NCBI GenBank assembly: GCA_004524565.1
Contig: SDNZ01000009.1
Location: 1-38,601 of the forward strand
Direction of reading: 5' to 3'
DNA: 38,601 nucleotides
From: Candidatus Thorarchaeota archaeon
Lineage (GTDB): Archaea > Asgardarchaeota > Thorarchaeia > Thorarchaeales > Thorarchaeaceae
The notes below the pieces were generated by a model, which saw nothing but the letters and a program-made list of their open reading frames with translations, searched no databases and was not told where the DNA came from. Numbering within the stretch: position 1 is the stretch's first letter; every line of letters begins with the position of its first letter. The translations under genes and the position numbers were made by a program. Below are positions 1 through 21,837 of the stretch, one piece after another.

Positions 1-344
1 GCATCCTCAGTTTCTTTGATCCATTTTGGGAGTTCAATCCATGTACTCTTTCTTGTTGTGTCAAAGACTAGAAGCGCACCTTTGGAACCTCTATAATAAC
101 TACCTCGAATGAAATCGAATCGTTGCTGTCCCGCAAGATCCCAGACCAGAAGTTTCACTACAACGTTACGACCATTTGCAGCATCAACACTGACTGTCTT
201 TACAGCAAATTGGGACCCAATAGTTACAATATACTCCTCTGAGAATTTATGAGTGAGAAAACGGTTTACAAGTGCGGTCTTGCCAGATCCTCCGGCACCG
301 ATCATAACGACCTTACGCATGTAATCGAATCCACCACTACTCAA
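1..344 (-). CDS. Ras/Rab-like small GTPase (C-terminus cut by window edge)
   Basis: Only the first 114 residues are inside the window. They show the G1/P-loop GAGGSGKT (residues 16-23), a switch I threonine (Thr41), and the G3 motif WDLAGQ (68-73) with the Gln that serves catalysis in Ras-type enzymes. The order and spacing are those of Rab/Ras GTPases. The G4 and G5 base-recognition motifs would lie past the left edge. A TTG start at 344 is chosen because GAGGTGA precedes it by about 5 bases; an in-frame ATG at 320 would leave the P-loop very close to the N-terminus. Eukaryote-like small GTPases are a hallmark of Asgard archaea. The function is presumably signalling or membrane association, but the partner is unknown. 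It is divergent from the ribbon-helix-helix gene at 602 and probably shares its promoter region. Confidence 0.93.
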   Translation of the reverse strand, partial: MSSGGFDYMRKVVMIGAGGSGKTALVNRFLTHKFSEEYIVTIGSQFAVKTVSVDAANGRNVVVKLLVWDLAGQQRFDFIRGSYYRGSKGALLVFDTTRKSTWIELPKWIKETED

Positions 345-538
345 ATTTTCACCTCACTAGGAGTCGAGACTTCCGCAATAACACCATAGGGGAGGGTCAC
401 GGAGCTATCACTACATGAATCCACCCATCGGCGTCCATCTTCGAACTTGAATTGTCTATATTTAGCCGTTTCTGGGTTTAATGCCTCTTGATTCTTTTCA
501 AAATCTACGTGATTGAAGGGTAGTTGGCGCGGAGACTT
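341..538 (-). other. 65-codon open frame overlapping the GTPase start, no standard start codon
   Basis: Directly upstream of the GTPase the same strand stays open for 65 codons. It ends in TGA (343-341), which overlaps the GTPase TTG start by two bases, as in translationally coupled genes. The composition looks protein-like (for example KYRQFKFEDGRRWVDS). The only ATG, GTG or TTG in frame is GTG at 424, which would give 27 residues. It lies where the leader of a transcript from the TATA box at 551-562 would be. It could be a small coupled gene with an unusual start, a decayed gene, or chance. Confidence 0.25.
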
Positions 539-550
539 TCAATGGTGGTA

Positions 551-573
551 TCACTTTATATCGAAAAATTTCG
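551..573. promoter_or_regulatory. Divergent TATA box with adjacent inverted repeat
   Basis: The bases tttatat at 554-560 form a near-symmetric TATA element readable on both strands. It is placed to start transcripts leftward near 530-535 (GTPase) and rightward near 582-588 (ribbon-helix-helix gene, ATG 602). Immediately right of it is the inverted repeat CGAAA-aa-TTTCG (562-573), the size of site ribbon-helix-helix dimers bind. Autoregulation and control of the GTPase are inferences. Confidence 0.4.
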
Positions 574-601
574 GGTCATCAATTGTTGTGAGGATAAGGA
601 C

Positions 602-781
602 ATGAAGCTAGTGACCGTAAAAATGAGTGATATTTACGTAAATGGCCTCGACAAGCTTGTAGAGATTGGAATGTATCCATCAAGGAGTGAAGCAATACGA
701 GTCGCAATTAGAGACCTATTACGCAGAGAACTCTGGCCAGAAAATGGTAGTCCGATCCTAAAGAATCCAGAATCTGAGTGA
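602..781 (+). CDS. Ribbon-helix-helix (CopG/NikR-type) transcription regulator
   Basis: This 59-residue protein has the archaeal ribbon-helix-helix pattern. A short beta strand (KLVTVKMSDIYVNGLD) is followed by two helices containing YPSRSEAIRVAIRDLL, the classic sequence of this fold. Such proteins bind DNA as dimers through the paired N-terminal strands. The frame is open upstream to a TTG at 524, but ATG 602 is preferred because GAGG lies 9 bases upstream and because the longer version would run through the TATA box at 551-562. It is divergent from the small GTPase gene, so it may regulate that gene and itself. There is no metal-binding domain like that of NikR. Confidence 0.85.
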   Translation: MKLVTVKMSDIYVNGLDKLVEIGMYPSRSEAIRVAIRDLLRRELWPENGSPILKNPESE

Positions 782-873
782 TTTAAACGCCTTATTTTAT
801 GACCCAAAACCCTTTAGTGCTTATGAGTTGCCTCAGAAACAATTAGCACGAAGTCCTTAGGAGGATTACAGTT

Positions 874-1386
874 TTGAACATTAGAGTGTTCTTCAAAAGT
901 ATAAAATTCGCGTTCCGCGCCAAGAAACGAGTAATTCCATTCATGATGGTTTATGCAATTTTGTTCATCGTAGTATCTGATGGGCTACTAACAGCTGATT
1001 GGCTCTGGTACATCTTGATGGCTTTGATTGCATCGATGTTCTATGCTATCATCATTTCACAGAATAGACGCAGAGATATGTCTGTCTTCAAATGTATTGG
1101 ATGGTCAAACAGCGATGTTATGTTACTAGTAATTGGAGAAGTTCTTCTTGTAACAATCGCATCATTTCTAGTAATGCTTCAGATAAGCTTCGAGATCATG
1201 GGAATCATTGCATACTTTGAAGGTGCGGGTGGCCTATTCGATCCAGTATATGACTTCATTGTCATTCCAGCAGGTTCACTATTTACAACGTTCTTCTTTG
1301 TACTGGGGATGCAGATACCAGGATTGTTCATAGCTCAGAGAAGAGCAATGTCAGTTCCGCCAATGAAGGCACTAAGGGAGGAGTGA
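874..1386 (+). CDS. Compact FtsX-type ABC permease subunit (single 4-TM unit)
   Basis: A 170-residue membrane protein with four hydrophobic segments (about 20-38, 44-62, 83-107, 130-152). Two FtsX/MacB permease hallmarks are visible: the stretch after the second segment, RRRDMSVFKCIGWSNSDV, matches the usual 'RRRExGxLKAxGxxxxxI' coupling helix, and the C-terminal MSVPPMKALREE matches the usual 'xxPxxALR' end. There is no extracellular domain and no second FtsX unit, so it is about half the usual size and presumably works as a dimer or oligomer. TTG 874 has AGGAGGA about 8 bases upstream. It is followed after 4 bases by its ATPase. The substrate is unknown; FtsX/LolCDE-class transporters usually move lipids or peptides or transmit mechanical signals rather than import solutes. 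Confidence 0.82.
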   Translation: MNIRVFFKSIKFAFRAKKRVIPFMMVYAILFIVVSDGLLTADWLWYILMALIASMFYAIIISQNRRRDMSVFKCIGWSNSDVMLLVIGEVLLVTIASFLVMLQISFEIMGIIAYFEGAGGLFDPVYDFIVIPAGSLFTTFFFVLGMQIPGLFIAQRRAMSVPPMKALREE

Positions 1387-2070: not shown

Positions 2071-2913
2071 GTGAGTGACATGCAGCCGATGGATTGCGAG
2101 AAGCATGAAAAGGCGGCAGAAAGACTCGCAAAAGATGGAGGAAACCTAGAAGCTATGAAGCTGTTCCAACAAGCAGCTGAATGTTGGACTAAATGGGAAT
2201 CCTTCTCCAGAGCAGCTCAAGCATATGAACGAGCATATGAGCATGGAATGCTGGCTTGCCAATATGCTGAAGCTGCTCTCATGATGACCGCAGCTGGTGC
2301 GTCTTGGATAAAACATGGAGAACATGAAAAGTTCGAGATAGATTGTCAGATTGCAGCAGAGGCATATGTTTCTGCGGCAGGTGCAGAAAAAGATCCACTC
2401 CTTTTGTTAGATGGAGCCTATTGTGCAATAACGGGCGGTGACATTGACATGGCACGGTCTCTATTACATGCAGTTATCGAAACTACGAAAGGAGAGGCAA
2501 CAGGTTTGATTGATCTTGCTTTGATGCTCACAGAGTATCGTTTTGGTGATGCTGACAAAATGATCGAATCAATTCTTGCTGATGAACTTGATAGTGAACA
2601 CCTGGGTAAAATAAAACGTGCTTTCGAATTAGTACTTGCAGGATTCATACGAACATCACTTGAATCAGAAGCAGCTGTAACACTAGCTAGTCTAGAAGAG
2701 AGCACGGGGCTTGAAAGAAAGAGATTGAAACGAACGATTATTGTGGCAATTGAAAAGGGGTATATACCAGCATATTATGATGAAGAAACAGACGAACTTG
2801 TGATTGATAGCGATAGATTCGATGTAGAAGCATTAGAAGCACGAAAAGGACCTATTCTAAGCCGAGATCTTGATGACCCAGGGGCATGGGACATGGATCT
2901 CGGAGATAATTGA
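2071..2913 (+). CDS. TPR/SNAP-like alpha-solenoid protein with C-terminal winged-helix-like end
   Basis: A 280-residue soluble, almost all-helical protein. The N-terminal half shows Ala-rich helical repeats of the TPR/SNAP type, such as [20 protein letters not shown] followed by [12 protein letters not shown]. The last third (about 195-255) reads like a PCI-type winged helix: [19 protein letters not shown], then [17 protein letters not shown] as the wing. There is no signal peptide or membrane segment. The GTG start follows the ATPase stop by 2 bases, with ATG 2080 as an alternative, so it is co-transcribed with the FtsX-ABC pair. A cytosolic adaptor or regulator of that transporter is an inference. 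The C-terminal tail is acidic. Confidence 0.7.
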
Positions 2914-5530: not shown

Positions 5531-7003
5531 TTGTCAGACCTATTACCTGATTCGATCAGAGATAAAGTACTAGCAGAAATCACTCCGAGTCAGGATGAAA
5601 TTGACCTCCAATCAAAAATCATCGACCAACTTATTGACGCATTACATAAGAAGGCAGAAGAAACGCATTTTCGATATTCGTTCATAACACCAGAAGGCTC
5701 AACAGGAAAGAAACAAACTCAGCTGAAGGGTGCAGCAGATATCGACCTATTCGTTGCACTAAATCCTGAAGATTACGCAGAAGTATTCGTAGAAACTCAA
5801 TCTGTAAATCGCCAAGCAATAGATGATATCATGAGTGATCTTGTTACCAAATGGTTTGAACCAGCTGTAAATGATCTCAAAGTCACAAATGTACAGAAGG
5901 CATTCTCTCAACATCCCTTTCTATCGTTGAAAATTGAAGGGATAGATGTGGACATTCTCGGGTGTTTCGATATAGATGCTAAAACTCTGGCAGAAAAAGG
6001 ACCAATTACAGCAGTGGACCGAACCGTACATCATACTTCTTACGTCGCAGATCGAATGACACAGAGAAAAAGAGAAGATGCAAGGATTCTGAAATCTTTC
6101 GTTCGCGCGTGTCATGCCTATGGAGACACCTGCGCAGTAGGTAGAATGGGGCTCACCGGTGTAACATTGGAGATTATAGTTTTGAAAAATCCAAATCTGG
6201 AATCATCATTCAATGCGCTTCGTAATTTAGATACCAAACCAGTTGATCCACAATCACGAACGCTCAAAGAATTGAAGACGATTCCAGCATTTCGAGATGA
6301 TCACATATTCTTGATAGACCCGACAGATCAAAGTAGAAACATGGCTTCAAGTTTTAGTCCAAGATCCTATGCGTGGGTGCAGTACAACATTGATAGACTG
6401 AAGGAGAATCTGGTAACTAATGATACTATGACTATCTTGACATCATTGATAGAATCACCAATTCCAAGCAGGGACTTGCCTACATGGATCGCGAAACATT
6501 GTAATGTTAAAGAATTCAAATCCGATGGTACAGTGCATTATACGATTCTTCGTGATAAACTGCATAGACTTGCCAGAAAGGCAATCTCAGAGATGAGTGA
6601 AGAAAGAACAGGAGAATCTCGTTTTGGAGAGATACTGTCGGAAGTATATTTTGAAAATACTAGATTTGCGCTTGGCATGATCGTAGAATCACCATTTGCT
6701 TCCACAACATTTGACAGGAAAGGACCTCCAATAGCACTAACGGAAGCAGCAACAAAATTCAGGGAAGCTCATGGAAATGCTGTCTTCGAATCAGACGGAT
6801 TTCTATACATTAGAGAGAAACGAGAATGGACAGAGTCCTCAAAATTATTCGAGAATATTCTGTGCAATAACCTCATCGAGGGACTAGAGATTCAGAATGA
6901 GAAAACCCTACTAAGTAATCAAGTTTTACATGTTCTTTATGATTGTGTTCTTCCACTGGAACCCGAGTTTAAGGAACGAATGACAAGAGTTAAGGAGTTA
7001 TAG
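5531..7003 (+). CDS. cca: CCA-adding enzyme (tRNA nucleotidyltransferase, archaeal class I)
   Basis: The enzyme adds or repairs the 3' CCA of tRNAs from CTP and ATP without a nucleic-acid template. The nucleotidyltransferase site is clear: GS (56-57), then a linker and KGAADIDLFV with catalytic Asp70 and Asp72; the third carboxylate is probably in IDVDILGCFD (around 155). The central ..RILKSFVRACHAYG.. and GLTGVTLEIIV segments match the archaeal family. Its 490 residues are somewhat longer than the usual 440-460. The TTG start has no strong Shine-Dalgarno and translation may be leaderless. The amidohydrolase gene follows after 14 bases. Confidence 0.93.
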   Translation: MSDLLPDSIRDKVLAEITPSQDEIDLQSKIIDQLIDALHKKAEETHFRYSFITPEGSTGKKQTQLKGAADIDLFVALNPEDYAEVFVETQSVNRQAIDDIMSDLVTKWFEPAVNDLKVTNVQKAFSQHPFLSLKIEGIDVDILGCFDIDAKTLAEKGPITAVDRTVHHTSYVADRMTQRKREDARILKSFVRACHAYGDTCAVGRMGLTGVTLEIIVLKNPNLESSFNALRNLDTKPVDPQSRTLKELKTIPAFRDDHIFLIDPTDQSRNMASSFSPRSYAWVQYNIDRLKENLVTNDTMTILTSLIESPIPSRDLPTWIAKHCNVKEFKSDGTVHYTILRDKLHRLARKAISEMSEERTGESRFGEILSEVYFENTRFALGMIVESPFASTTFDRKGPPIALTEAATKFREAHGNAVFESDGFLYIREKREWTESSKLFENILCNNLIEGLEIQNEKTLLSNQVLHVLYDCVLPLEPEFKERMTRVKEL

Positions 7004-7017
7004 AAGAACCCCTCAAT

Positions 7018-8106
7018 GTGATTGTCTTGGCTAAGGAGAAGATCGCTTTCATTTCACATCCGAAAGCTAGCTTACATCGGATGCCATTCCCTAAACCTCA
7101 TCTTGAGTCTTTTGAGAATCCTCTTCGTTATCAGATGGCAGAGAGGTATCTAGAACAGAGTGGGATTCTTTCGCAATTAATCAGAGTAAAGGCACCAAAG
7201 GCTACATTGAAAGAGCCCCTACTTGTGCACTCCCCATATCTTGTTGATACTGTGGAATTGATGTCGGAGATAGGAAGTGGACAACTTGGAGAGTCTGCAT
7301 ATGCAAGTCCCGATCTAATCAGAGCTGCATTACTCACTGTTGGTGGAGCAATGAAGGGCGTAGATATGGTCCTAACTGGAGATATCAACCACGCCTTTGT
7401 TTTGATGAGACCTCCTGGACATCATGCGTCAACATCTAATCCTATGGGACTATGTTATTTCAACAATGTAGCCATTGCAGCAAAACATGCTCTTCATGAT
7501 GAAACTATTGAACGAGTATCAATAATTGATTTTGACGATCATCATGGGAATGGAACATCAGAAATCTTCTATACACATCCTGATGTTCAGTATATCTCAT
7601 TTCATGAGTACGATTATGAAAATTTCGGGTTAGGGCATTATGACGAATTGGGATATGGTGAAGGGAAAGGTACAAACATCAATATTCCATTATTAGAAAC
7701 CTCACCAGATATCTCCTATGAATCAGCAATCAATAGAATCATGATTCCTGCGCTCAAATCTTTCAAACCAGACTTGATTTTAGTTTCAGCAGGGTATGAT
7801 GCACATTATTCAGATCCTGTTGGAAATATGGATGTTGATTCAAGAACTTACTGGAGATTTGGTCACGAGATTGGAAAATTAGTCAAATCCGTTGATGCTA
7901 GGGGTTCAGTATGGGTACTGGAAGGAGGGTACAATCCCTTTGCGATTGGACCATCAATTCATGCAAGTCTTGTGGGATTATTAGGTAACCCACAGCCTGT
8001 TTTAGAGGACCAGCTTGAGAGAGAAGTCAATAAATTGATTGTAGAATCAAATAATGAGATAATTGGAAAAGTTCTGGAAACTATCAAGCCATACCTGAAG
8101 AGTTAA
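7018..8106 (+). CDS. Histone-deacetylase-family amidohydrolase (AcuC/acetylpolyamine type)
   Basis: A 362-residue arginase/deacetylase-fold protein with a complete active site: the His pair in RPPGHHAS (His135, His136), zinc ligands Asp173 and His175 in IIDFDDHHGNGT, the later zinc Asp in GYDAHYSDP, and the transition-state Tyr in EGGYNP. Such enzymes remove acetyl groups from lysines, polyamines or small molecules, and the sequence does not separate these. It lies 14 bases after the CCA enzyme and 78 bases before ribosomal S26e, probably co-transcribed with the former. A role in chromatin-protein deacetylation would be an inference. Confidence 0.93.
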   Translation: MIVLAKEKIAFISHPKASLHRMPFPKPHLESFENPLRYQMAERYLEQSGILSQLIRVKAPKATLKEPLLVHSPYLVDTVELMSEIGSGQLGESAYASPDLIRAALLTVGGAMKGVDMVLTGDINHAFVLMRPPGHHASTSNPMGLCYFNNVAIAAKHALHDETIERVSIIDFDDHHGNGTSEIFYTHPDVQYISFHEYDYENFGLGHYDELGYGEGKGTNINIPLLETSPDISYESAINRIMIPALKSFKPDLILVSAGYDAHYSDPVGNMDVDSRTYWRFGHEIGKLVKSVDARGSVWVLEGGYNPFAIGPSIHASLVGLLGNPQPVLEDQLEREVNKLIVESNNEIIGKVLETIKPYLKS

Positions 8107-8128
8107 CAAAAACTTGCGCAACATGAAC

Positions 8129-8138
8129 AACGTTTTAA
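8129..8138 (+). promoter_or_regulatory. Candidate box A promoter of S26e
   Basis: AACGTTTTAA lies about 50 bases upstream of the S26e start. It fits a TATA-like element with a transcription start near 8160 and a short leader carrying the GGTGGA Shine-Dalgarno at 8171-8176. Confidence 0.45.
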
Positions 8139-8184
8139 GGCTACTAGACCAGCGGCTCGTAATCAGTCATGGTGGAACTGAAAA

Positions 8185-8478
8185 TTGGCAAAGAAAAGGA
8201 AATCTGGTGGCCGCAGCAAAGGCGGTCAAGGTAAGAGCAAAACCGTACAATGCACTAGATGTGGAAGAATTGTACCCTCTGACAAAGCTAAGAAATATAC
8301 CAAGAGAGTATCATCTGTTGATCCTCAATTGGCAAGAGAACTCAGACAACAAGGCAGCTACATTCAAACTCGTAGAGTTACCGCATACTACTGTGTGAGT
8401 TGTGCTGTTCACGCTGGTAGAGTACACATCAGACAAGCTTCTGAAAGAAAAACTGTACCAGGTCCTCGTGGTCACTAA
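8185..8478 (+). CDS. rps26e: Small ribosomal subunit protein eS26
   Basis: This 97-residue protein matches archaeal and eukaryotic S26e along its length: the basic Gly-rich N-terminus KKRKSGGRSKGGQGK, the first zinc pair CTRC, PSDKAKK, and YYCVSCAVH with the second zinc pair, ending basic. Eukaryotic S26e lies at the mRNA exit channel of the small subunit. It is absent from many euryarchaea and present in Asgard, TACK and eukaryotes. TTG 8185 is the start, with GGTGGA 8 bases upstream. It is an isolated gene with its own promoter. Confidence 0.95.
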   Translation: MAKKRKSGGRSKGGQGKSKTVQCTRCGRIVPSDKAKKYTKRVSSVDPQLARELRQQGSYIQTRRVTAYYCVSCAVHAGRVHIRQASERKTVPGPRGH

Positions 8479-8544
8479 TTAAAACTCAGCATGTCCGCTC
8501 TTCAGGTCCAAACTAAGAGACCAAACGTTTGATCCCATAACTAG

Positions 8545-13327: not shown

Positions 13328-15178
13328 CTAAGATGAGAATTCTGAAACCCTAAGGTCATTTCGTGTCATGAAAAATACATAGACTGGAATTGAAGCCAAT
13401 AGTATCACAGCAAGTATTGAGATGAAGATAGTCACTATCGAAGCGGGAAGATATGCTAATGTAGGAACAGCAGCTTCAGGTATAAGGGTATAGATACTCA
13501 GAAGCGCAGCTACAAGTAGTGCAGGGATCCCTGATTTCACACCCATTTCCAATCCCTCTGCAATCATCACTTTTGCAATGAATGAGGGTTTTGCTCCAAT
13601 CGAACGCATGATGACATAGTCTCTAAGTCGTCCAAATACTGAAACCAAGAGATAATTCATGAGACCAAGAAAAGCGCTAACCAGAGCCATTAATGCAAGT
13701 GGATTCAATAGAATCCAAATAGCATGGATAGATTCAATGTTTTCATCTAAGGCAATTTGTTGCCTAAAGATGCTAAATCCATAGCTCTGCGCGAGAGTTT
13801 CAATCTGGGAAATTACAGATTCATCGTAGTAATCAAGCTGAACCAGAGCTAGATTGGTTCCATCCACACCAACTGCACTCTGCAGAACGGATTGATCCAT
13901 AAATGCCAACATTCCACCATTCAGGGTATCGAATGCACGTGCGCTAACAGAAAGTGAGCGTCCTCTAAAACCCAATGATTGCACTAGAGGATCTACAAAC
14001 ATCTCATTAGCTAACGTTCCCCCTATCCATACCTCGGTGATATTTGGTCTTGAACCTTCGAAATACCAATCAGATATCGTAGAAGTCCAATCAACACCTA
14101 CAAGAAGTGCATTATCTTCACGACCTTCTCCGATTCGTGTATAATCCTCTATCAATGGATTCCAGACAATCCCATCTCCTTCTTGTACATCCGAAAATAC
14201 AACAAGACGAGACTCGATATTAACAACCCCAAGTACATCATCAATTTCATTCAAAAGAGATGCGTTGATCAAATCCGAAGATTCGAGAAAATCAAACGCA
14301 TCATTGAGAGGAGACCCATAAGGAGAGTATGCATCATAATATTGATCTAAAAGTGCAGGGTTCCCTACCGCGATGACATTAGTTCCCATTGATCGCATCA
14401 AATAGGAACGTGATGTTGTTTCTACGACACCACCACCCATCCAAAGGAGAGATGCAATAGTAAAGCTAAGAAACAGTGATAATATTGTTCTGCGAGTTCC
14501 GCGAATTCTTCGACCGGTCCCTTTTGCTGCAATACGGAAAGCTAATCCAAAAGTATCTAGAAAACCGGATTTAGTAACCTTAGAACCAACATCGGGGTTT
14601 AGAGCTAAAGAGGGGGATTCTTGAACAGTGTCGTAGATGGGTTTCTGTGATGAGTAGTATCCAGTAAATATGTAAATTACAGCAAGCAATCCGATTTGAA
14701 GAAATGGAAAGTCCATCGTAAATTGAACATTTGTAAGGTAAGAAGATAGCCAAACCATTCCAATCAAATAGAATACAGTTCCAAAGGTCAACCCAAGAAT
14801 GACACTCGCAAGGAGTAGAATAACGGATTGAGCCATGAAAAAGTCAAAGATGGTATCTAAGGTTGTTCCTACTGCTTTCATCAGTCCAATATCACGACGC
14901 CGTGTAACCATCTCCAAGGATACAGTAGAGGAAACTACAACAGCACCGAGTACAAAGACTAGCAATAGGACAAACCATACAAAGGTTGAGAAGAACATCC
15001 CCATGGAAGATGCAAGTGTTCCTGAAATCGAATATACTGAAACATCCAGAAGCACATTTCCAAATAGGAAAATGAAGGTTGTAGAAGCTATTACGCTGGT
15101 CAAAGAGATTAGTACAAGCGTTGATCTGAATGGACGACGCTTGAGATCCTTCGAAGCGTAGTTCTCTAATTCAGACAT
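13328..15178 (-). CDS. MacB/LolC-type ABC permease with two FtsX units
   Basis: A 616-residue membrane protein. An N-terminal anchor (about 20-42) and first FtsX unit (about 55-175, with TRRRDIGLMKAVGTTLDTIF as the coupling segment) are followed by a further anchor (about 228-247). A large extracellular domain (about 250-490) follows, then a second FtsX unit (490-610) with RLRDYVIMRSIGAKPSFIAK. This is the full architecture of exporters of the MacB/LolCE class. It overlaps the ATPase gene by 8 bases and forms a pair with it. The cargo (lipid, peptide or lipoprotein) is not evident. Confidence 0.9.
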   Translation of the reverse strand: MSELENYASKDLKRRPFRSTLVLISLTSVIASTTFIFLFGNVLLDVSVYSISGTLASSMGMFFSTFVWFVLLLVFVLGAVVVSSTVSLEMVTRRRDIGLMKAVGTTLDTIFDFFMAQSVILLLASVILGLTFGTVFYLIGMVWLSSYLTNVQFTMDFPFLQIGLLAVIYIFTGYYSSQKPIYDTVQESPSLALNPDVGSKVTKSGFLDTFGLAFRIAAKGTGRRIRGTRRTILSLFLSFTIASLLWMGGGVVETTSRSYLMRSMGTNVIAVGNPALLDQYYDAYSPYGSPLNDAFDFLESSDLINASLLNEIDDVLGVVNIESRLVVFSDVQEGDGIVWNPLIEDYTRIGEGREDNALLVGVDWTSTISDWYFEGSRPNITEVWIGGTLANEMFVDPLVQSLGFRGRSLSVSARAFDTLNGGMLAFMDQSVLQSAVGVDGTNLALVQLDYYDESVISQIETLAQSYGFSIFRQQIALDENIESIHAIWILLNPLALMALVSAFLGLMNYLLVSVFGRLRDYVIMRSIGAKPSFIAKVMIAEGLEMGVKSGIPALLVAALLSIYTLIPEAAVPTLAYLPASIVTIFISILAVILLASIPVYVFFMTRNDLRVSEFSS

Positions 15179-15923
15179 TTTCAGTTAACACTCCTTCATT
15201 CATCGTGAACCGACGAATACCAGACTGTTTGATGATTCCCTCGTCATGAGTCATCACAATGACCGCCTTTCCCATTTCGTTCAGCTCAATTAGAAGGTCA
15301 CGAACCATCTGACCACTATCTCCATCGAGATTTGCAGTAGGTTCATCTGCAAGTATGATGGGAGGGTCATTGGCCATTGCTCTGGCAATTGCGACTCTTT
15401 GTTGTTCGCCTGAGCTGAGCTGCCATGGAAGGTGATCCGCGCGATGGTCCATTTTTACTCGTTCGAGTAACATAATTGCTTCATCATGAAGCTTGGAATG
15501 ACTCTTATCTGAAAGTTGCATGGGAAACATTACATTCTCCACTGCAGTCAAGGTGGAAACTAAATTGTAACTTTGGAAAATGAAACCTGTGTTGCTCAAT
15601 CTGAAAGAGGATCTGAATGCTTCATCATAATCATTGATTGGAACATCCATTACATAGACTCGACCAGAAGAACTCAAATCAATGGCTCCAATAATGTTGA
15701 GAAGAGTAGTCTTTCCTGAGCCAGAATGGCCTGCAATGACAATAAAATCACCCAATTTGACTTCCAAGCTAACGTTACGCAAAGCCTCGATATCCATTCT
15801 TCCAGCTTTATAGGACCTAGAAACATCGTTTAATTTCACTGCAAATTTAGTTTCAGCAAAATCCTCGACATCAATATCATCGCGAGTATAGTCTACAGCG
15901 TCTAAGTATTCATCATCAGCCAT
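15171..15923 (-). CDS. ABC transporter ATP-binding protein of the MacB/LolD class
   Basis: A 250-residue ATPase: Walker A GHSGSGKTT, Q-loop FIFQSYN, signature LSSGEQQ, Walker B IILADEP with TANLD, switch His in MTHDEG. It carries an acidic extension of about 28 residues (DEYLDAVDYTRDDIDVEDF) before the ATPase domain that ordinary LolD proteins lack. It is coupled to the downstream permease by overlap. A 116-base region with two dyads separates it from the upstream winged-helix regulator. Confidence 0.94.
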   Translation of the reverse strand: MADDEYLDAVDYTRDDIDVEDFAETKFAVKLNDVSRSYKAGRMDIEALRNVSLEVKLGDFIVIAGHSGSGKTTLLNIIGAIDLSSSGRVYVMDVPINDYDEAFRSSFRLSNTGFIFQSYNLVSTLTAVENVMFPMQLSDKSHSKLHDEAIMLLERVKMDHRADHLPWQLSSGEQQRVAIARAMANDPPIILADEPTANLDGDSGQMVRDLLIELNEMGKAVIVMTHDEGIIKQSGIRRFTMNEGVLTENV

Positions 15924-15973
15924 TCGATTTCACCCATGAATAAGATTGGGACTTACGTGAATAAGTCTTTGAG

Positions 15974-16008
15974 GACCTCTACCCATCATGAAGATAAGGA
16001 TAGAGGTC
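15974..16008. promoter_or_regulatory. 8-bp inverted repeat upstream of the ABC operon
   Basis: GACCTCTA (15974-15981) and TAGAGGTC (16001-16008) are exact reverse complements with a 19-base spacer, 50-85 bases before the ATPase start. It could be a paired operator or a hairpin at the end of the regulator transcript. Confidence 0.4.
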
Positions 16009-16021
16009 GGTCAGTTTTTGT

Positions 16022-16036
16022 ACTATAGACTATAGT
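16022..16036. promoter_or_regulatory. 15-bp palindrome between regulator and ABC operon
   Basis: ACTATAG-a-CTATAGT is a perfect odd palindrome 3 bases past the regulator's stop and about 100 bases upstream of the ABC ATPase start. It is a plausible binding site for the winged-helix regulator encoded next to it; this is an inference from position. Confidence 0.4.
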
Positions 16037-16039
16037 TGG

Positions 16040-16840
16040 TTACACCAAAATATCTGAGCAGGTCAGGGCGGTACGAGCCCAATCAGTAAGTACGACTGGT
16101 TTCTCTCTTCCAAAGACCTTAATGGATCTCAGAATATCTGCTTTCAGAAGACTGCTGGTGTAGTAAGAAATGAGACTCTTATCTACATCGAGATCTCTAC
16201 TGATTTCAGCTTGTGTTGTCTGACCATTCTTCAAACACTCGGTCAGAATCGAACCGACAGTAGGATTCCGTGCCAGGGCAGTTAGTAGGAGAACTCGGTC
16301 TTCAGTCGAGTAACCTGGAGGAAAGATGTGTCTCACATTTCCTGCTCTAAGTGATACCACTTGACCATCATTCTCAAGATTCTTCAAGTGATATTGAAGA
16401 GCACCCATTGCACAACCTATCGTTCGATGTAGTTCACGTAGATGTACACCAGGATTTGCAGATACCTCATCTGCGATTCTATCACGCAGTTTGAGAACAC
16501 GTTTATCCTTTGTACGTTCAAGTGATATCGTTCCTATGATCAGTGCAACAAAGCCTAAATCGAGAGATTGGGACATCCAACTATTTAGCATACTCAGTGT
16601 TCCAATACCACTCCATGCGATTGCATCGACTGTGATATTGATAGTACACATGCCCGTTGTTTTCATTGAATGTCCTATATCGAGTGTGGCCAGGTTGTGA
16701 GTTGCTTCAGTTGGAATATCTTGAGCAACAAGATTTAACCCGCCATACCCAGAACTAGACAGAGCTACACCAATAATGCCCCATGTAAGGAGCATGAATG
16801 ATAATCCAATAAGCATTCGTTTAGTCCATTGGCTGCTCAT
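16040..16840 (-). CDS. Membrane-anchored winged-helix transcription regulator
   Basis: A 266-residue protein with an N-terminal hydrophobic helix (about 9-30), a short outside segment with one Cys, a second hydrophobic helix (about 85-103) and a cytosolic part with two winged helices. The first (about 112-172) has HLRELHRTIGCAMGALQYHL as its helix-turn-helix, the second (about 180-262) TQAEISRDLDVDKSLISYYT. This layout is known for archaeal membrane-bound ArsR/MarR-like regulators that sense the cell surface. It lies directly upstream of the FtsX-type exporter, its likely target. Confidence 0.85.
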   Translation of the reverse strand: MSSQWTKRMLIGLSFMLLTWGIIGVALSSSGYGGLNLVAQDIPTEATHNLATLDIGHSMKTTGMCTINITVDAIAWSGIGTLSMLNSWMSQSLDLGFVALIIGTISLERTKDKRVLKLRDRIADEVSANPGVHLRELHRTIGCAMGALQYHLKNLENDGQVVSLRAGNVRHIFPPGYSTEDRVLLLTALARNPTVGSILTECLKNGQTTQAEISRDLDVDKSLISYYTSSLLKADILRSIKVFGREKPVVLTDWARTALTCSDILV

Positions 16841-16908
16841 ATGTTTTCTACCACCATGTACCCTAATATGGTTTAGTAGTTAAGCAAATTGTTTGTTGAA
16901 AGTTTGCA

Positions 16909-17463
16909 CTACTGAGTACCCCGAGGTGGATAGGTCATTGTAATCTTGAATGTGCATGTTTCTGCACCCATAGACATGCATGTATCTTCAGTGACGAGAA
17001 GTTTTTCGTACTCGATTCTATTGAAGTCAGTGAGGTATTCTAGAACTGCTTCAATAAATCCTTTCAAGAAATGACATGAGGCGTCCTCTGCTTCATAGCC
17101 TGAAGCATAGGGATTATCTTCAATTTCGATTATTGCTTCTTCGTCAAGCCATAGCTTGTAGAGTTTAGCGATTTTAATTTCGCCAAATGGCACAATTAAA
17201 GTTTCCAATGCCATTTTAATGAATTCAACTATACCCTTGAAGTCGCCAGGAGGTTTCTGTTTTCCAACTTTGAAATATTCTCTCTGTGCTTCAAGACCAG
17301 CAAGTCTTCCTGCAGAATAGTAAAGATCCCGTACACGATCTGGGAACATAACTGCAATTCTACTACCAATTTTATTCCATGTTTTTGCAAAGAACGCGGA
17401 CATCAGGTCTCGCTCTTTCAGCTTGCCTTGCCACCATGGAATCACCTTATCCTGCTTTGACAT
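16909..17463 (-). CDS. V4R-domain protein
   Basis: A 184-residue protein ending in a V4R (4-vinyl-reductase-type) domain. Cys130 in ASCHFLKGFIEAVLEYL, the partner Cys162 in TEDTCMSMGAE, and Cys170 in ETCTFKI follow the V4R pattern, in which conserved cysteines and an acidic/glycine turn close a ligand-binding pocket. V4R shares its fold with TRAPP subunit Bet3 and with heme-NO-binding domains. The ATG for MSKQDK (17463) is preferred; a longer frame would overlap the preceding gene. It is the third gene of the first Roadblock/V4R cassette and lacks the CxxC pair of the other two. Confidence 0.8.
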   Translation of the reverse strand: MSKQDKVIPWWQGKLKERDLMSAFFAKTWNKIGSRIAVMFPDRVRDLYYSAGRLAGLEAQREYFKVGKQKPPGDFKGIVEFIKMALETLIVPFGEIKIAKLYKLWLDEEAIIEIEDNPYASGYEAEDASCHFLKGFIEAVLEYLTDFNRIEYEKLLVTEDTCMSMGAETCTFKITMTYPPRGTQ

Positions 17464-17525
17464 ATGATTGGCCCCAATGTAGTTCAATTTGTGTAAATAC
17501 GAGTTAAGTGCTTTGTTGTGATATT

Positions 17526-17999
17526 CTATCCGAGGCGTACATTCCAAGTGCACAAATCAGCACCTGTAGCGCGACTGGTTTCTTGGAACACTTTTGCGTC
17601 TACACCCTTAAATTCTAGTATTGTTTCGAGGATACCACTAAAAATTTCGCAGTAACCAAAACCCCGCATCCCCTCAAGATTGACCTCTTGGCACCATACA
17701 CACTCTTTGTCGCTGATTCGAACAGATCCTCGTGCGGTCTTCATATCAACATCATCGGGTTTCTTATCATAGAGAACCTTGTAAACTACATCAATAAGCT
17801 TGGCAACATCCTCACGGGTAGTCACACTATCTTTGGTCTTTTCCACAATCTCTGTGTTGAGATAGATTTGTTGACCGATCTCATGACCTAAATCGCGTAA
17901 TTTCTGATTGGCTTCATCAATATTGGAAGTTTCTGAAAGAATCTTATCGACGTAATAGGCATAGAAACTTAGTAGCAATGGATTCTCAATTTTAGGCAT
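17526..17999 (-). CDS. TRAPP(Bet3)/V4R-like protein, first cassette
   Basis: A 157-residue protein of the V4R/Bet3 superfamily. A helical N-terminal half is followed by CVWC, then GFGYCEIFSGILETILEFKG and ATGADLCTWNVRL, the superfamily's C-terminal core. Counted from the upstream TTG its cysteines are 103, 106, 120 and 153, spaced exactly as in the paralogue at 20386. ATG 17999 is the best start, with GAGGTTGA 5-10 bases upstream. It follows the Roadblock gene by 20 bases. Bet3 proteins form the helical half of TRAPP, a nucleotide-exchange factor for Rab GTPases; a GTPase-related role here is an inference. Confidence 0.82.
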   Translation of the reverse strand: MPKIENPLLLSFYAYYVDKILSETSNIDEANQKLRDLGHEIGQQIYLNTEIVEKTKDSVTTREDVAKLIDVVYKVLYDKKPDDVDMKTARGSVRISDKECVWCQEVNLEGMRGFGYCEIFSGILETILEFKGVDAKVFQETSRATGADLCTWNVRLG

Positions 18000-18019
18000 C
18001 AATTTCAACCTCTTTGTAT

Positions 18020-19027
18020 CTATTCGATAGTCCGCCCAATCATCTTCAGGCCGGATTTTCTGTATTTTGCCAGAGTCTGCAAAACTTTGGGCATTGGTAA
18101 ACTTGTAGATGCAGCAATCTGCTCTGGAGTTTGCTTGCCATCACACATTCGGATGATGCTGATATCATCACCTGCAACTTTATTGATATCTCCCTCAAAC
18201 TTGGGACATTTCACATATCTACCCATGGATCCACTGCCAGTAGACGCTACACTATCATCGAGATCTTCAGTAACTCGTGGTACAATGATGACTTCTCTTG
18301 TTGCACTCCATTTCAATAGATCAATAACTCGATCGGTAGATTGGAACATAGAGTCTGCAATATTTGCTACACTGTTCGATCCATCTACAAGCATTAGTAC
18401 ATCAAAACCGAAGTTACGATACAGTGTTTTCATCTCAGTATTAAGCTCCGAATCCAGTGATAGAGCTGTTGAATATTTAGGACCTCGTTCTGGAATTGTT
18501 GATGTTGAAACACTGAAGTCCTCACGGGTTAGCTCCTCGACGGGAGCACTTTCAACCTCAGAAGGCACTGGGGTAATAATAGAAGTATCAGATGAATCAG
18601 AATCGGCAGTAGTTACTTCAACTGCGGCAGCATTAATTGCAATGCTTTCGAGAACTTGAAGATTAGTTTCTGAAGATTCCTCGAAATCTTCAGGTGGAGG
18701 TGGAAGTTCAATTCCTTCAAGTAAACGAAGAACGTTCTTTGTTTTGGCTATCGCTAATCCCAGCTGGAGCTCAGGTACATAAAGAACTGTGAGAATCCAA
18801 TTGTCATCGACTGGAGATAGAACCACTAGACCTTTTTCTGTATCAATAGTCATGAGGCGAAGGTCAGTCTTGTAGAGTTTGATACTATCCTGCACTCTTG
18901 GAAAGAGATCGTCAGGAAAAGCAAAGCTGACGAATGGACGGCCAATTTTTGTCATCAGAGAATACCCAAGAACCTGATCATCAAATCGTAGCTTTGAGAG
19001 AGCTCGCTCTAAATCTTTAGAAGACAT
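18020..19027 (-). CDS. Roadblock/LC7-like protein with C-terminal winged helices, first cassette
   Basis: A 335-residue three-part protein. Residues 1-105 have the Roadblock/LC7 order of helix, paired strands, helix and strands (DLERALSKLRFDDQVLGYSL up to AIAKTKNVLRLL). Residues 106-185 are a Pro/Ser/Glu-rich linker beginning LPPPPEDFEE. Residues 187-335 hold two helix-turn-helix-like units with NSVANIADSMFQSTDRVID and CDGKQTPEQIAASTSLPMP. Roadblock domains dimerise and bind small GTPases (MglB, Ragulator). ATG 19027 has GAGGTG 7 bases upstream. It is the head of a three-gene leftward cassette with two V4R proteins. Acting as GTPase regulator is inferred. Confidence 0.8.
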   Translation of the reverse strand: MSSKDLERALSKLRFDDQVLGYSLMTKIGRPFVSFAFPDDLFPRVQDSIKLYKTDLRLMTIDTEKGLVVLSPVDDNWILTVLYVPELQLGLAIAKTKNVLRLLEGIELPPPPEDFEESSETNLQVLESIAINAAAVEVTTADSDSSDTSIITPVPSEVESAPVEELTREDFSVSTSTIPERGPKYSTALSLDSELNTEMKTLYRNFGFDVLMLVDGSNSVANIADSMFQSTDRVIDLLKWSATREVIIVPRVTEDLDDSVASTGSGSMGRYVKCPKFEGDINKVAGDDISIIRMCDGKQTPEQIAASTSLPMPKVLQTLAKYRKSGLKMIGRTIE

Positions 19028-19203
19028 CTTAATACACCTCAAGCCGAGTAGTGAAATTACTTCCAGCCCGTTCAAGCTCTTTTTCTCAAACTCTTAAGAA
19101 AAGCCTTGTGGTGATGGTCTCTAATCCCAAAACTGTGATTATTCGAAAACTGTTAAGAGGAGAATGGATTTCATAATCTAATGAGGCACTCTGAGGAGAT
19201 CAA

Positions 19204-19764
19204 ATGAGAAACGTACTGGGCGGACTCGTTGGTATTATAGCGGGATCTATAGTAGTAGTGACACTGGCAGGTCTCTCAAATCCAATGTACTCAGAACCAT
19301 ACAGTATCATATGGTTCATTCTTAGTGGGAGCGACGCACTCAGATTGTCCCTTGATGGATTTTTGAATCCGAATGTATCCATTGCATACATAGTTACTTG
19401 GTTGATCATAGGAGTGATTATTGGTTTATTTTCAAAAAAGGGGTGGAATACCCTACGGTCAGCACTCTGGGTAGGTTTGATTCTTGGAATTCTATCCCTT
19501 GCATCAATCATGCTTCTGGATGCGGGATACTGGATAGCACCTACAAGAAACTTAGAGTTGCTTTACCATTTCACTGGCTCAATAATTATATCACTCAGTG
19601 CTATGCCTGGTGCAATTCCTATTACATTTCTCATTGAAAGAATAATGAGACAAGCTGAAGAACCCATTCCTGAAAAGATTGAGACAATTTGTGATTGTGG
19701 AGCAGTATTCAAATCAAATCCACTGATTTGTTCAGAATGTGGGAAACAACTACGTGAAGTTTGA
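19204..19764 (+). CDS. Four-helix membrane protein with C-terminal zinc ribbon
   Basis: A 186-residue protein with four hydrophobic segments (about 6-26, 62-80, 88-108, 125-147), then a cytosolic tail with CxC and CxxC (CDCGAVFKSNPLICSECGK), a zinc-ribbon pattern. The segment around the second helix, GVIIGLFSKKGW, matches GLVAGLMSKDF in the next gene, so the two are likely related. GAGGAGA lies 5-6 bases before ATG 19204. It is divergent from the first Roadblock cassette and ends 2 bases from the convergent neighbour. Family not recognised. Confidence 0.72.
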   Translation: MRNVLGGLVGIIAGSIVVVTLAGLSNPMYSEPYSIIWFILSGSDALRLSLDGFLNPNVSIAYIVTWLIIGVIIGLFSKKGWNTLRSALWVGLILGILSLASIMLLDAGYWIAPTRNLELLYHFTGSIIISLSAMPGAIPITFLIERIMRQAEEPIPEKIETICDCGAVFKSNPLICSECGKQLREV

Positions 19765-19766
19765 TT

Positions 19767-20300
19767 CTAACGATCTCTTGTTATACCGCCACCCAAGATA
19801 CCACCAATTGCACAAGCAATACATGGATAGATAGCCCCTTCAAGTGCTACCTGCATTAATAGTAGAGACCCATTGCCAAATATCGCAGCAATATCGAATC
19901 CTGCATATATCATGAAGAATAATAGCCAAGTCAGAATAGCTCCGAGAATTGCAGCAAAGACTGCTGAAAGAATACCAGGGAGGAAGTCTTTCGACATTAG
20001 ACCCGCAACAAGACCCCCAGTTCCCCAAGCAAGAAACATCAAAACTGATGCGCCACCAGCACCAATACCAACAACGCTACCCAGACTTGCACCACCTAAA
20101 GCAGAAGGATAGAGAATAGTTCCGACTACTGCAAGTCTAAGTTCTAAATCTGCGTTTGCTAGAAAATCAGTGACTACACTTGAAGATATCAAATCCTCTG
20201 GCATGTAAATACCAAATGTCATCACTAGAAATGTTATTCCAAATGCGGTTATGAGTCCCAATAGCGTGCCTATACCTTGGCCCAAAGAGGATGCCTCCAA
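19767..20300 (-). CDS. Small glycine-rich membrane protein
   Basis: A 177-residue protein of four or five hydrophobic segments with many Gly-Ala packing motifs (GGASLGSVVGIGAGGAS, then WGTGGLVAGLMSKDFLPG). It has no cysteine ribbon at the C-terminus, which ends GGGITRDR. It resembles the neighbouring zinc-ribbon membrane protein around the WxxxGxxxGLxSK segment, so a duplication with loss or gain of the ribbon is plausible. It lies just upstream, on the same strand, of nothing closer than the first cassette 700 bases on, and is downstream of the second cassette. Function unknown. Confidence 0.65.
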   Translation of the reverse strand: MEASSLGQGIGTLLGLITAFGITFLVMTFGIYMPEDLISSSVVTDFLANADLELRLAVVGTILYPSALGGASLGSVVGIGAGGASVLMFLAWGTGGLVAGLMSKDFLPGILSAVFAAILGAILTWLLFFMIYAGFDIAAIFGNGSLLLMQVALEGAIYPCIACAIGGILGGGITRDR

Positions 20301-20385
20301 ATAATAGGTTTGTATAATTTATTCTCTCACCTAATGTTTTATACCTATTCCATATGGCTTCTGTGATTCGTAAGACAATTCTCGT

Positions 20386-20892
20386 TTATGTAAGCAAACG
20401 AAGGGTCCAAGTACAGGCATCATCACCCAAAGCTCTGCAGGATTCCTGATAACTATCAGCAGAGAATCCACGTAGTTTCATTACTGCATCAAAGACGCCG
20501 CTGATAAGTACACAATATTGCAATCCTGGCATATCTGTAATCACCACACCTTGACAGATAGGACACTTTTCGTCAGTGAATTTTATCGTTCTTTTATCGT
20601 TACTGACTTCTACCGATGTGAATTCCTGACCAGAGTTGACTTTGTATGCTAACTGCAATGTTCTCGAGAATTGGTGAAAATCTGCAGCATGCTCTCTAAT
20701 CCGATCTGCATAGTCCATGAGAAGAGTTTCGCCAACGCGAAAGCCGATATCTTTCATCTTTGTGTTAATCTCATCCACACTGACACTTGTACTCATCAGT
20801 AGATTCATGAGTTCACGGTAGCTTGCTTGGAAGAGTACCTTTGATACTTTGTCTGTCTTAAGTTGCCATCCTAATTTTCCTTTCACACCCAC
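20386..20892 (-). CDS. TRAPP(Bet3)/V4R-like protein, second cassette
   Basis: A 168-residue paralogue of the protein at 17526. CPIC (110-113), QYCVLISGVFDAVMKLRG (Cys127) and LGDDACTWTLRL (Cys160) repeat the same CxxC-x13-C-x32-C spacing. The GDD before the last strand resembles the C-terminus of eukaryotic Bet3. The GTG start is set by GAGGTTGA, which is made of the last codons and stop of the upstream Roadblock gene, leaving a 6-base gap. Pairing with a Roadblock protein in both cassettes suggests that the two products work together. Confidence 0.82.
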   Translation of the reverse strand: MGVKGKLGWQLKTDKVSKVLFQASYRELMNLLMSTSVSVDEINTKMKDIGFRVGETLLMDYADRIREHAADFHQFSRTLQLAYKVNSGQEFTSVEVSNDKRTIKFTDEKCPICQGVVITDMPGLQYCVLISGVFDAVMKLRGFSADSYQESCRALGDDACTWTLRLLT

Positions 20893-20898
20893 TTTAAT

Positions 20899-21837
20899 TC
20901 AACCTCTTGTTAATTTAACCGTACGAATGAATTGTAGCGTTTTTCCACGATATGGAATAGTACATTGTAAGGCATCGAAATATGGAATTCCGAGCACGGT
21001 TGCTATCTGTTGAAGCGATCGTGTTCCATCACAGAGTTCTAAAACTGCACGATGTTGTTTCTTAGCCTTATCGAGTTTCCCTTCAAACAGTGGCATTTCA
21101 ATAATTTCCTTCTGTTCAGGATCCTGTTCATCAGGACACTCAACATCAACTACGCCATTCTTCGTGCACCATTTGACTGCGTCTAAAACTCGTTCAACAG
21201 GTTTTGCCAATCTTTCAGCAATCTTGTAGACTGTCATCTTCTCATCAATGATAAGGAGAATATCAACTCCAAGATTCGCATAGGATCGCTTCATCGCTAA
21301 GTTAAGTCTTGAATCAAGAGATACTGCCTCGTTGTAGTTCTTCCCTCTCCGTACGACACAGCCATGAAAAACCTCAATTTCTTGTTCATCCTCCGCATCA
21401 GGGGGAATGGACTCAACTGGTTCGGAAACATGTGGCTTCTCAGCAACTATTTGTTTTGGCGGTAGAGGTGCTTCTGGCACCACTTCAATATCAGGTTCCG
21501 CTGAAGCTATTGGAGGAGGCGGTAGGTCTACTTGAACAAGGAGATTAACAACAGCTTGGGTTCGTGACAGTGCACCACCAAGATGTAATTCAGGTCCAAA
21601 GAGTACAGCAAGTACCCACTTGGGGTCAATTCGTGCAAGAACCACACTCCCTTGACCTGTCATGATGTTCATCAATTTCAATCCACTAGCATGAATTTTG
21701 AGAGTCCCCTTAATTTGAGGCAACACTTCATCAGGTAGTGAAAATGAAAGAAATGGATGTCCATCATTTGTTATTAATGCATAACCGAGTACTGTCTCAT
21801 CAAATTTGAGTTTGGTCAGTACACGTTCTAATTGCAA
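20899..21837 (-). CDS. Roadblock/LC7-like protein with C-terminal winged helices, second cassette
   Basis: A 312-residue paralogue of the protein at 18020. The Roadblock-like domain (1-105, from LERVLTKLKFDETVLGYAL) is followed by a Pro-rich linker beginning LPPPP and then the shared block SLDSRLNLAMKRSYANLGVD. A helix-turn-helix (KIAERLAKPVERVLDAVKW) and a final unit with LCDGTRSLQQIATVLG end the protein. The TTG at 21837 is preferred over GTG 21846 because AGGTG lies 6-7 bases before it and the product then aligns with the paralogue. It begins 46 bases after the sugar-kinase stop, so it may belong to the same transcript. Confidence 0.8.
   Translation of the reverse strand: MQLERVLTKLKFDETVLGYALITNDGHPFLSFSLPDEVLPQIKGTLKIHASGLKLMNIMTGQGSVVLARIDPKWVLAVLFGPELHLGGALSRTQAVVNLLVQVDLPPPPIASAEPDIEVVPEAPLPPKQIVAEKPHVSEPVESIPPDAEDEQEIEVFHGCVVRRGKNYNEAVSLDSRLNLAMKRSYANLGVDILLIIDEKMTVYKIAERLAKPVERVLDAVKWCTKNGVVDVECPDEQDPEQKEIIEMPLFEGKLDKAKKQHRAVLELCDGTRSLQQIATVLGIPYFDALQCTIPYRGKTLQFIRTVKLTRG

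Follow-up and report, generated by a model that had tools for sequence, protein, structure and literature searches.

Paired Roadblock-Winged-Helix and TRAPPC3/V4R Genes in Thorarchaeota: a Candidate TRAPP-Like Complex in Asgard Archaea

Results

Two Paralogous Gene Cassettes in a Thorarchaeal Contig

We examined two gene cassettes located between positions 16,909 and 21,837 of contig SDNZ01000009.1 in the genome of a Candidatus Thorarchaeota archaeon (GCA_004524565.1). The whole stretch of DNA analyzed, 38,601 nucleotides in length and here called the window, forms contig 46 in a draft genome of 3.13 Mb. Each cassette contains a gene for a Roadblock-like protein with winged helices, here called RB_A and RB_B, followed by a gene for a protein of the TRAPPC3/V4R type, here called TRAPP_A and TRAPP_B (Table 1). 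In eukaryotes, TRAPPC3 takes part in vesicle tethering. A first-pass annotation, made from the nucleotide sequence alone, had described two leftward Roadblock and V4R cassettes with gaps of 6 to 20 bases and a further V4R protein in cassette A. This description agrees with our results: all five open reading frames are present on the minus strand, with 20 bases between the stop codon of RB_A and the ATG of TRAPP_A, and 6 bases between the stop codon of RB_B and the GTG of TRAPP_B. The start of the third V4R gene was placed downstream of that of the open reading frame because its orthologues begin about 30 codons later. That the same gene pair is present twice also held, as the two cassettes are paralogous, with 34% identity between RB_A and RB_B and 25% identity between TRAPP_A and TRAPP_B.

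Table 1. Features of the two cassettes and of the region between them (window coordinates)
Feature	Position	Strand	Description and evidence
RB_A	18020..19027	-	335 amino acids; predicted Roadblock domain, acidic Pro-rich linker and two winged helices; alignment with RB_B, Robl_LC7, HTH_47, tree
TRAPP_A	17526..17999	-	TRAPPC3/V4R protein, orthologue of 7YH2/7YH3, four cysteines; Pfam TRAPP, PDB, locus match
Third V4R protein, cassette A	16909..17463	-	184 amino acids, start inferred from orthologues; Pfam V4R; kept in the family
RB_B	20899..21837	-	312 amino acids, TTG start; predicted Roadblock domain, linker and two winged helices; AlphaFold, Foldseek, HTH_47
Roadblock domain of RB_B (predicted)	21529..21837	-	Residues 1-103; AlphaFold and Foldseek
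First winged helix of RB_B	21133..21345	-	About residues 165-235; lacking in partners from the other Asgard families
C-terminal winged helix of RB_B	20908..21108	-	About residues 244-310; common to all partner types
TRAPP_B	20386..20892	-	Diverged TRAPPC3/V4R paralogue, GTG start; Pfam TRAPP, PDB, alignments
Membrane protein between the cassettes	19204..19764	+	Syntenic
Membrane protein between the cassettes	19767..20300	-	Syntenic

The TRAPP/V4R Proteins

The V4R/Bet3-like identity proposed for these proteins was supported by Pfam matches above the cut-off in all three cases. TRAPP_A matched the TRAPP family with an E value of 2.8e-11 and the crystal structure 7YH3 with an E value of 7.8e-87, and both 7YH3 and 7YH2 were matched from end to end. 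TRAPP_B exceeded the cut-off for the TRAPP family only narrowly (E 2.1e-6) and matched 7YH3 at 4e-22, while the third gene encodes a C-terminal V4R domain (E 2.2e-9). TRAPP_A is the orthologue of the crystallized Thorarchaeal TRAPPC3 (7YH2, 7YH3). In both source strains of the crystallized proteins, SMTZ1-45 and AB_25, the TRAPPC3 gene is located at the same locus, directly after the gene for RB_A (L140, L144), with the RB_B-TRAPP_B pair upstream. The TRAPP phylogeny could not tell whether TRAPP_A and TRAPP_B are sisters (approximately unbiased test, p 0.48), nor whether the two copies arose at the time of the Roadblock gene duplication.

According to Tran et al. (2024; PMC10933270), the Thorarchaeal TRAPPC3 is a zinc-bound homodimer, in which the zinc is held by four cysteines, and internal cavities were reported. 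TRAPP_A contains exactly four cysteines and the equivalent four are retained in TRAPP_B, but they are not constant throughout the other families. In an alignment of the Asgard relatives, the CxxC pair, the last cysteine and two glycines were invariant or nearly so, and the N-terminal motif MGVKGxLxW of TRAPP_B was also found in other Asgard families. Bet3/V4R domains are described as binding hydrophobic ligands in two studies (PMC10933270; PMC2253512). All three V4R/TRAPP proteins of the window also gave weak matches to MsvR (best E 2.6e-4), and none approached the cut-off of 220 bits for the NCBIfam MsvR equivalog, with scores of 19.5, 16.7, and 20.8 bits.

V4R domains were also noted in other arrangements. 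At locus L062, a protein of 408 amino acids with a C-terminal V4R/TRAPP domain (3-1226, minus strand) is encoded divergently from two adjacent genes for Rab-like small GTPases (1440-2054 and 2287-2841, plus strand). A KaiC/RecA-like ATPase, as judged by eye, is fused to a C-terminal V4R domain at L133:3998-5260 and in two neighboring copies on a single Freyarchaeote contig (L064:15339-16586 and 16827-18101).

The Roadblock-Winged-Helix Partners

The Roadblock identity claimed in the first-pass annotation was upheld by the predicted fold of RB_B, but not by the Pfam profile. The cut-off for Robl_LC7 was not reached by RB_A (E 0.13; 12.5 of 23 bits), RB_B gave no match to this profile, and among the 38 family members a match was seen in 11, the best with an E value of 0.028. 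Nor was a Roadblock found in a profile search of the PDB with an alignment based on the Thorarchaeal sequences. Because proof from sequence had failed, the fold was tested with AlphaFold and Foldseek. The model of RB_B had a mean predicted local distance difference test (pLDDT) score of 87, and its N-terminal elements follow the order H-E-E-H-E-E-E-H (H, helix; E, strand). This agrees with the Roadblock order described by Tran et al., which has a helix at each terminus and a single helix separating strands 2 and 3 (PMC10933270). The Roadblocks of Asgard archaea, LAMTOR and MglB ranked first in the Foldseek search, with a probability of 1.00. The N-terminal domain of RB_B is thus predicted to have a Roadblock fold, as a divergent member recognized by fold only, and the corresponding domain of RB_A is assigned by its alignment with RB_B. 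The Thorarchaeal Roadblock crystallized by Tran et al. is another protein, which was picked by sequence homology to eukaryotic Roadblocks (PMC10933270).

In the RB_B model, the Roadblock domain is joined to two winged helices by an acidic, Pro-rich linker that was modeled with low confidence, as had been anticipated from the sequence for the linker and winged helices. The commonest Pfam match of the winged helices was HTH_47, which was seen in 35 of the 38 members (best E 1.2e-6); RB_A matched it with an E value of 0.0027 and RB_B with one of 5e-5. The C-terminal winged helix is net basic on average (mean +3.7) and the first is acidic on average. The recognition helices carry almost no net charge. 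Their charge does not decide between binding of DNA and binding of protein, and no DNA-binding signature could be established in the winged helices.

Every partner type in the Asgard archaea has the C-terminal winged helix, and no other element is shared by all of them; the additional middle winged helix is present in RB_A and RB_B only. In the phylogeny, a split with a support of 100/99 separated RB_A and RB_B together from the remaining Asgard partners. It was therefore concluded that the Roadblock gene was duplicated in the Thorarchaeal lineage before the family diversified.

Conservation and Loss within the Thorarchaeal Family

The block that extends from the ATP-binding cassette (ABC) transporter genes to the glutamine synthetase gene was syntenic in the genomes of the family, where contigs cover it. 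Chance is excluded as an explanation for the gene pairing within the family, because the block has been kept across it. Losses tell more about the pair than this synteny does. In two genomes, both genes of cassette B were affected and cassette A was intact: in G043, RB_B and TRAPP_B have vanished completely and about 175 bases separate the genes on either side, and in G012 the two genes are interrupted by stop codons, with a frameshift in RB_B as well.

On the 3' side of cassette A (window 13328-16840), we noted genes for a membrane-anchored winged-helix regulator of the HVO_0163 type and an ABC ATPase/permease pair, which adjoin the third V4R gene in all covered Thorarchaeal genomes.

Pairing in Other Asgard Families

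The first-pass annotation had suggested a survey of the linkage in other Asgard genomes, and the pair was found to be conserved. We searched 228 genomes of the phylum with a TRAPP protein profile and read the neighborhoods of the strong matches. Outside the Thorarchaeal family, a partner was adjacent on the same strand or fused in 24 of the 31 TRAPP contigs, and the flanking genes were unrelated. Five of the other seven contigs, from families f4 and f6, had no partner, and two (G010:C172 and G057:C40) were unjudgeable or contained no intact partner. A survey from the partner side, where 25 of 30 strong matches adjoined a TRAPP gene, is partly circular because the profile was derived from TRAPP-adjacent genes, and the count from the TRAPP side is the fair one.

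The partners were of several types. A Roadblock-like domain with a winged helix, followed by TRAPP, was identified in f11, f12, f5, and f16 (named members Jordarchaeia, Freyarchaeota, and Baldrarchaeota), where the Roadblock assignment is suggested by the domain layout and weak PDB profile matches (E 0.27 and 0.49). A longin domain with a winged helix accompanies TRAPP in f13, where two different TRAPP genes are followed by one longin-winged-helix gene, and probably also in a Njordarchaeote of f16. In f9, an alignment showed a short zinc-ribbon-like domain (CxxC and HGxPxH motif) with a winged helix, followed by TRAPP.

Natural fusions were also found. The longin-TRAPP protein at L117 (f7) gave a model with a mean pLDDT of 73 and a predicted template modeling score of 0.70, which matched TRAPPC3 (7YH3, TM 0.86 by target length) and the longin of VAMP7. 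The other two were a longin-V4R protein of 285 amino acids (L134, f18) and a chain of 471 amino acids (L126, f10) with an N-terminus that looks longin-like by eye, a winged helix and a V4R domain. One Heimdall longin-TRAPPC3 fusion was noted earlier by Tran et al. (PMC10933270).

Among the Pfam families, Sybindin (Bet5/Trs23) scored best with several of the Asgard longin partners, but the best E value of 0.008 is below the cut-off. A Sybindin identity was not significant in a profile search of the PDB (Trs23 E 0.86, TRAPPC1 E 1.7), and the match is a lead only.

Three further observations concern the surroundings of these genes. In f4, the Roadblock-like-winged-helix gene that is located away from TRAPP follows a gene that is gelsolin-like by eye (L177:3619-4590; L178:3501-4361). 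The same Roadblock-like N-terminal domain is fused to a nucleotidyltransferase-like domain, recognized by eye from a 'DIDLVGH'-type motif, at L184:4564-5838, L185:4337-5521, and L186:4425-5741. In f9, the same two neighboring genes, of about 430 codons, border the pair on either side (L101, L103-L105, L109-L111, L113); by eye they resemble LarA-type and HMG-CoA-reductase-type proteins, a possible link to isoprenoid lipids.

Association with Small GTPases

The gene at window positions 1-344 encodes a genuine Ras-family GTPase according to Pfam, but it is located about 16 kb from the cassettes, and no link to them was found. An operon with the order Ras-like GTPase, CxxC/HGxPxH-winged-helix protein and V4R protein was identified in 8 Thorarchaeal genomes from 6 genera (g2, g3, g6, g7, g9, and g10; L127:3864-5537 and 6912-8483, L132:3804-5364, and L191-L198), and twice in tandem in G213. 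Its genes overlap or nearly so, and the V4R member was also detected by the TRAPP profile; in the window's own genus, no strong match to the operon was seen. The operon has the same plan of a partner plus V4R, here with the GTPase in the operon, and offers the strongest argument for a role of such modules with small GTPases. In the available portions of Tran et al., operons are mentioned for a Rag-like GTPase pair and in a statement on the small GTPase genes of MK-D1 (PMC10933270).

Discussion

We propose that each cassette gives rise to a two-component complex. The TRAPPC3/V4R protein would form a zinc-stabilized dimer of the Bet3 fold with a pocket for a hydrophobic ligand, and the Roadblock domain of the partner would dimerize into a platform of the kind on which small GTPases dock, as they do on Roadblock and longin dimers. 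A flexible acidic linker would tie this platform to the winged helices, which probably bind protein. A lipid or another hydrophobic ligand on V4R may then alter the action of the platform on a Ras/Rab-like GTPase, as an exchange factor or a GTPase-activating protein (GAP), so that the GTPase would be placed or switched at the membrane. In other Asgard archaea, a longin or zinc-ribbon-like domain would replace the Roadblock domain, or the parts would be fused in one chain.

The folds, the pairing and its recurrence, the fusions, the partial loss as a unit, the zinc cysteines, and the GTPase in one operon variant are the observations behind this proposal. That the RB and TRAPP products of each cassette bind each other physically is very probable, and the V4R part probably senses a ligand. 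Whether the partner controls a small GTPase is an even question, and we consider the balance to be slightly in favor of the proposal as a whole, namely that the products form a TRAPP-like complex whose V4R part is the sensor of a hydrophobic ligand and whose Roadblock/longin partner has a small GTPase as its target.

Several observations weigh against this proposal. The synteny in Thorarchaeota spans the entire block and therefore says little on the pair by itself. In genus g5, TRAPP_B has an in-frame stop codon in G028 (L037:11989-12495) and is a remnant in G099 (L045), while RB_B is open, and pair B is therefore not strictly obligate. The TRAPP genes of f4 and f6 are arranged in tandem, with the Roadblock-like-winged-helix gene elsewhere in the genome. 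Furthermore, no Ras-like GTPase gene adjoins the cassettes in the window. According to Tran et al. (PMC10933270), the small GTPase genes of MK-D1 do not as a general rule form operons with genes for Roadblock, longin or TRAPPC3, and the Asgard proteins were diffuse, with no membrane targeting, in HeLa cells. The conserved block and the solitary decay of TRAPP_B would fit genes that are neighbors through inherited synteny only, with no joint function. Such an explanation is very improbable, since several Asgard families show the pairing amid unrelated neighbors, with partners of different folds and also as fusions; the linkage is more than local synteny.

The strongest rival is that the cassettes encode a ligand-sensing transcription regulator, where V4R, like that of PoxR/DmpR and MsvR, would respond to a hydrophobic or redox signal and pass it to the partner, the winged helices would bind DNA, and the Roadblock domain would only dimerize; the regulated genes would be located nearby, such as those for the downstream ABC exporter. 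V4R is indeed the sensory domain of PoxR/DmpR, which were structural neighbors, and of MsvR, to which the weak matches point. The partner winged helices score against HTH families, the profile of the partners in other families matches DNA-binding HTH structures, and the net basic C-terminal winged helix is the one element that all partner types share. However, the near-neutral recognition helices and the acidic first winged helix speak against DNA binding, and some members of HTH_47 and its PqqD-like relatives bind protein. As a transcription regulator would also leave the recurrence of Roadblock/longin domains and the GTPase-containing operon variant unexplained, we regard it as unlikely. More doubtful still is a scaffold or membrane tether that acts with no GTPase, in which lipid-binding V4R would hold the Roadblock-winged-helix protein to the membrane, possibly together with the downstream ABC exporter. 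All across the family, cassette A and the ABC genes remain in synteny, the cavities of Bet3/V4R proteins are of lipid size (PMC10933270), and in Ignicoccus a V4R protein is located at the inner membrane and at putative sites of fusion (PMC5468417). Yet the pairs outside Thorarchaeota have unrelated neighbors and no such exporter, and the diffuse localization in HeLa cells argues against a tether as well.

The protein families and one structure, that of TRAPPC3, were already known. In the available portions of their study (PMC10933270), Tran et al. treat TRAPPC3 alone, as a homodimer, with no mention of the Roadblock-winged-helix partner, TRAPP_B or the third V4R gene. Within the open-access library that was searched, neither the Roadblock/longin-winged-helix partner of TRAPPC3 nor the Asgard-wide pairing nor the GTPase-V4R operon was found to be described. 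MglA/MglB and Ragulator (LAMTOR) share the predicted fold of the N-terminal domain, but their Roadblocks are single-domain proteins with neither winged helices nor a V4R partner. In MsvR and PoxR/DmpR, the V4R sensory domain is combined with DNA-binding or AAA+ modules, whereas here V4R and winged helix are as a rule on separate polypeptides and a Roadblock/longin domain is added.

The bacterial conservons (CvnA-D, mfp operon) encode a Roadblock protein, a protein of the HTH superfamily (DUF742) and a Ras-like GTPase in one operon; in the mfp operon, MfpD, the Roadblock homologue, is a GAP, and MfpC, the homologue of DUF742, is likely to be a guanine nucleotide exchange factor. The logic resembles that proposed here and speaks for it: a Roadblock and an HTH-fold domain are co-encoded in both systems, and one Asgard variant adds a Ras-like GTPase beside the winged-helix protein. 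The conservons differ in having a histidine-kinase-like sensor in place of V4R/TRAPP, and the operons in the window contain no GTPase. A kinship of the winged helices with CvnC/DUF742 was indicated for some members (E about 8e-4), but the window protein scored an E value of only 0.37 in a whole-genome scan, behind two other places; such a homology is not established and was set aside as evidence.

In the eukaryotic TRAPP core (Bet3/Trs31/Trs33 with the longins Bet5/Trs23), a Bet3-fold protein is likewise paired with a profilin-like protein, of the Roadblock or longin kind, and the f13 cluster is similar in combining two different Bet3-fold genes with one longin. It differs in that the partner in the window is a predicted Roadblock with winged helices, and in that the Asgard longins match Sybindin weakly. 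No Sybindin-type longin paired with a Bet3-fold protein was found in the window; longin partners occur in f13 and f7, with Sybindin below the cut-off. The label 'minimal TRAPP', which the first-pass annotation had used, needs care because the window partner is a Roadblock and not a longin, with longin partners in other Asgard lineages. We tentatively suggest, as a possibility rather less likely than not, that Asgard archaea already possessed a functional GTPase-regulating complex of a Bet3-fold protein with a Roadblock/longin protein, the partnership at the heart of eukaryotic TRAPP, of which the Thorarchaeal cassettes would be a Roadblock-based branch and the f13 cluster a near-direct counterpart of half the TRAPP core.

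The structural study left the partners of the crystallized Asgard TRAPPC3 open, and a candidate partner can now be proposed. The pairing of a Bet3-fold protein with a Roadblock or longin protein recurs across Asgard families and as fusions, and a GTPase operon variant is indicated. The core partnership of eukaryotic TRAPP may thus be older than the eukaryotes, and the origin of TRAPP becomes directly testable with small soluble proteins.

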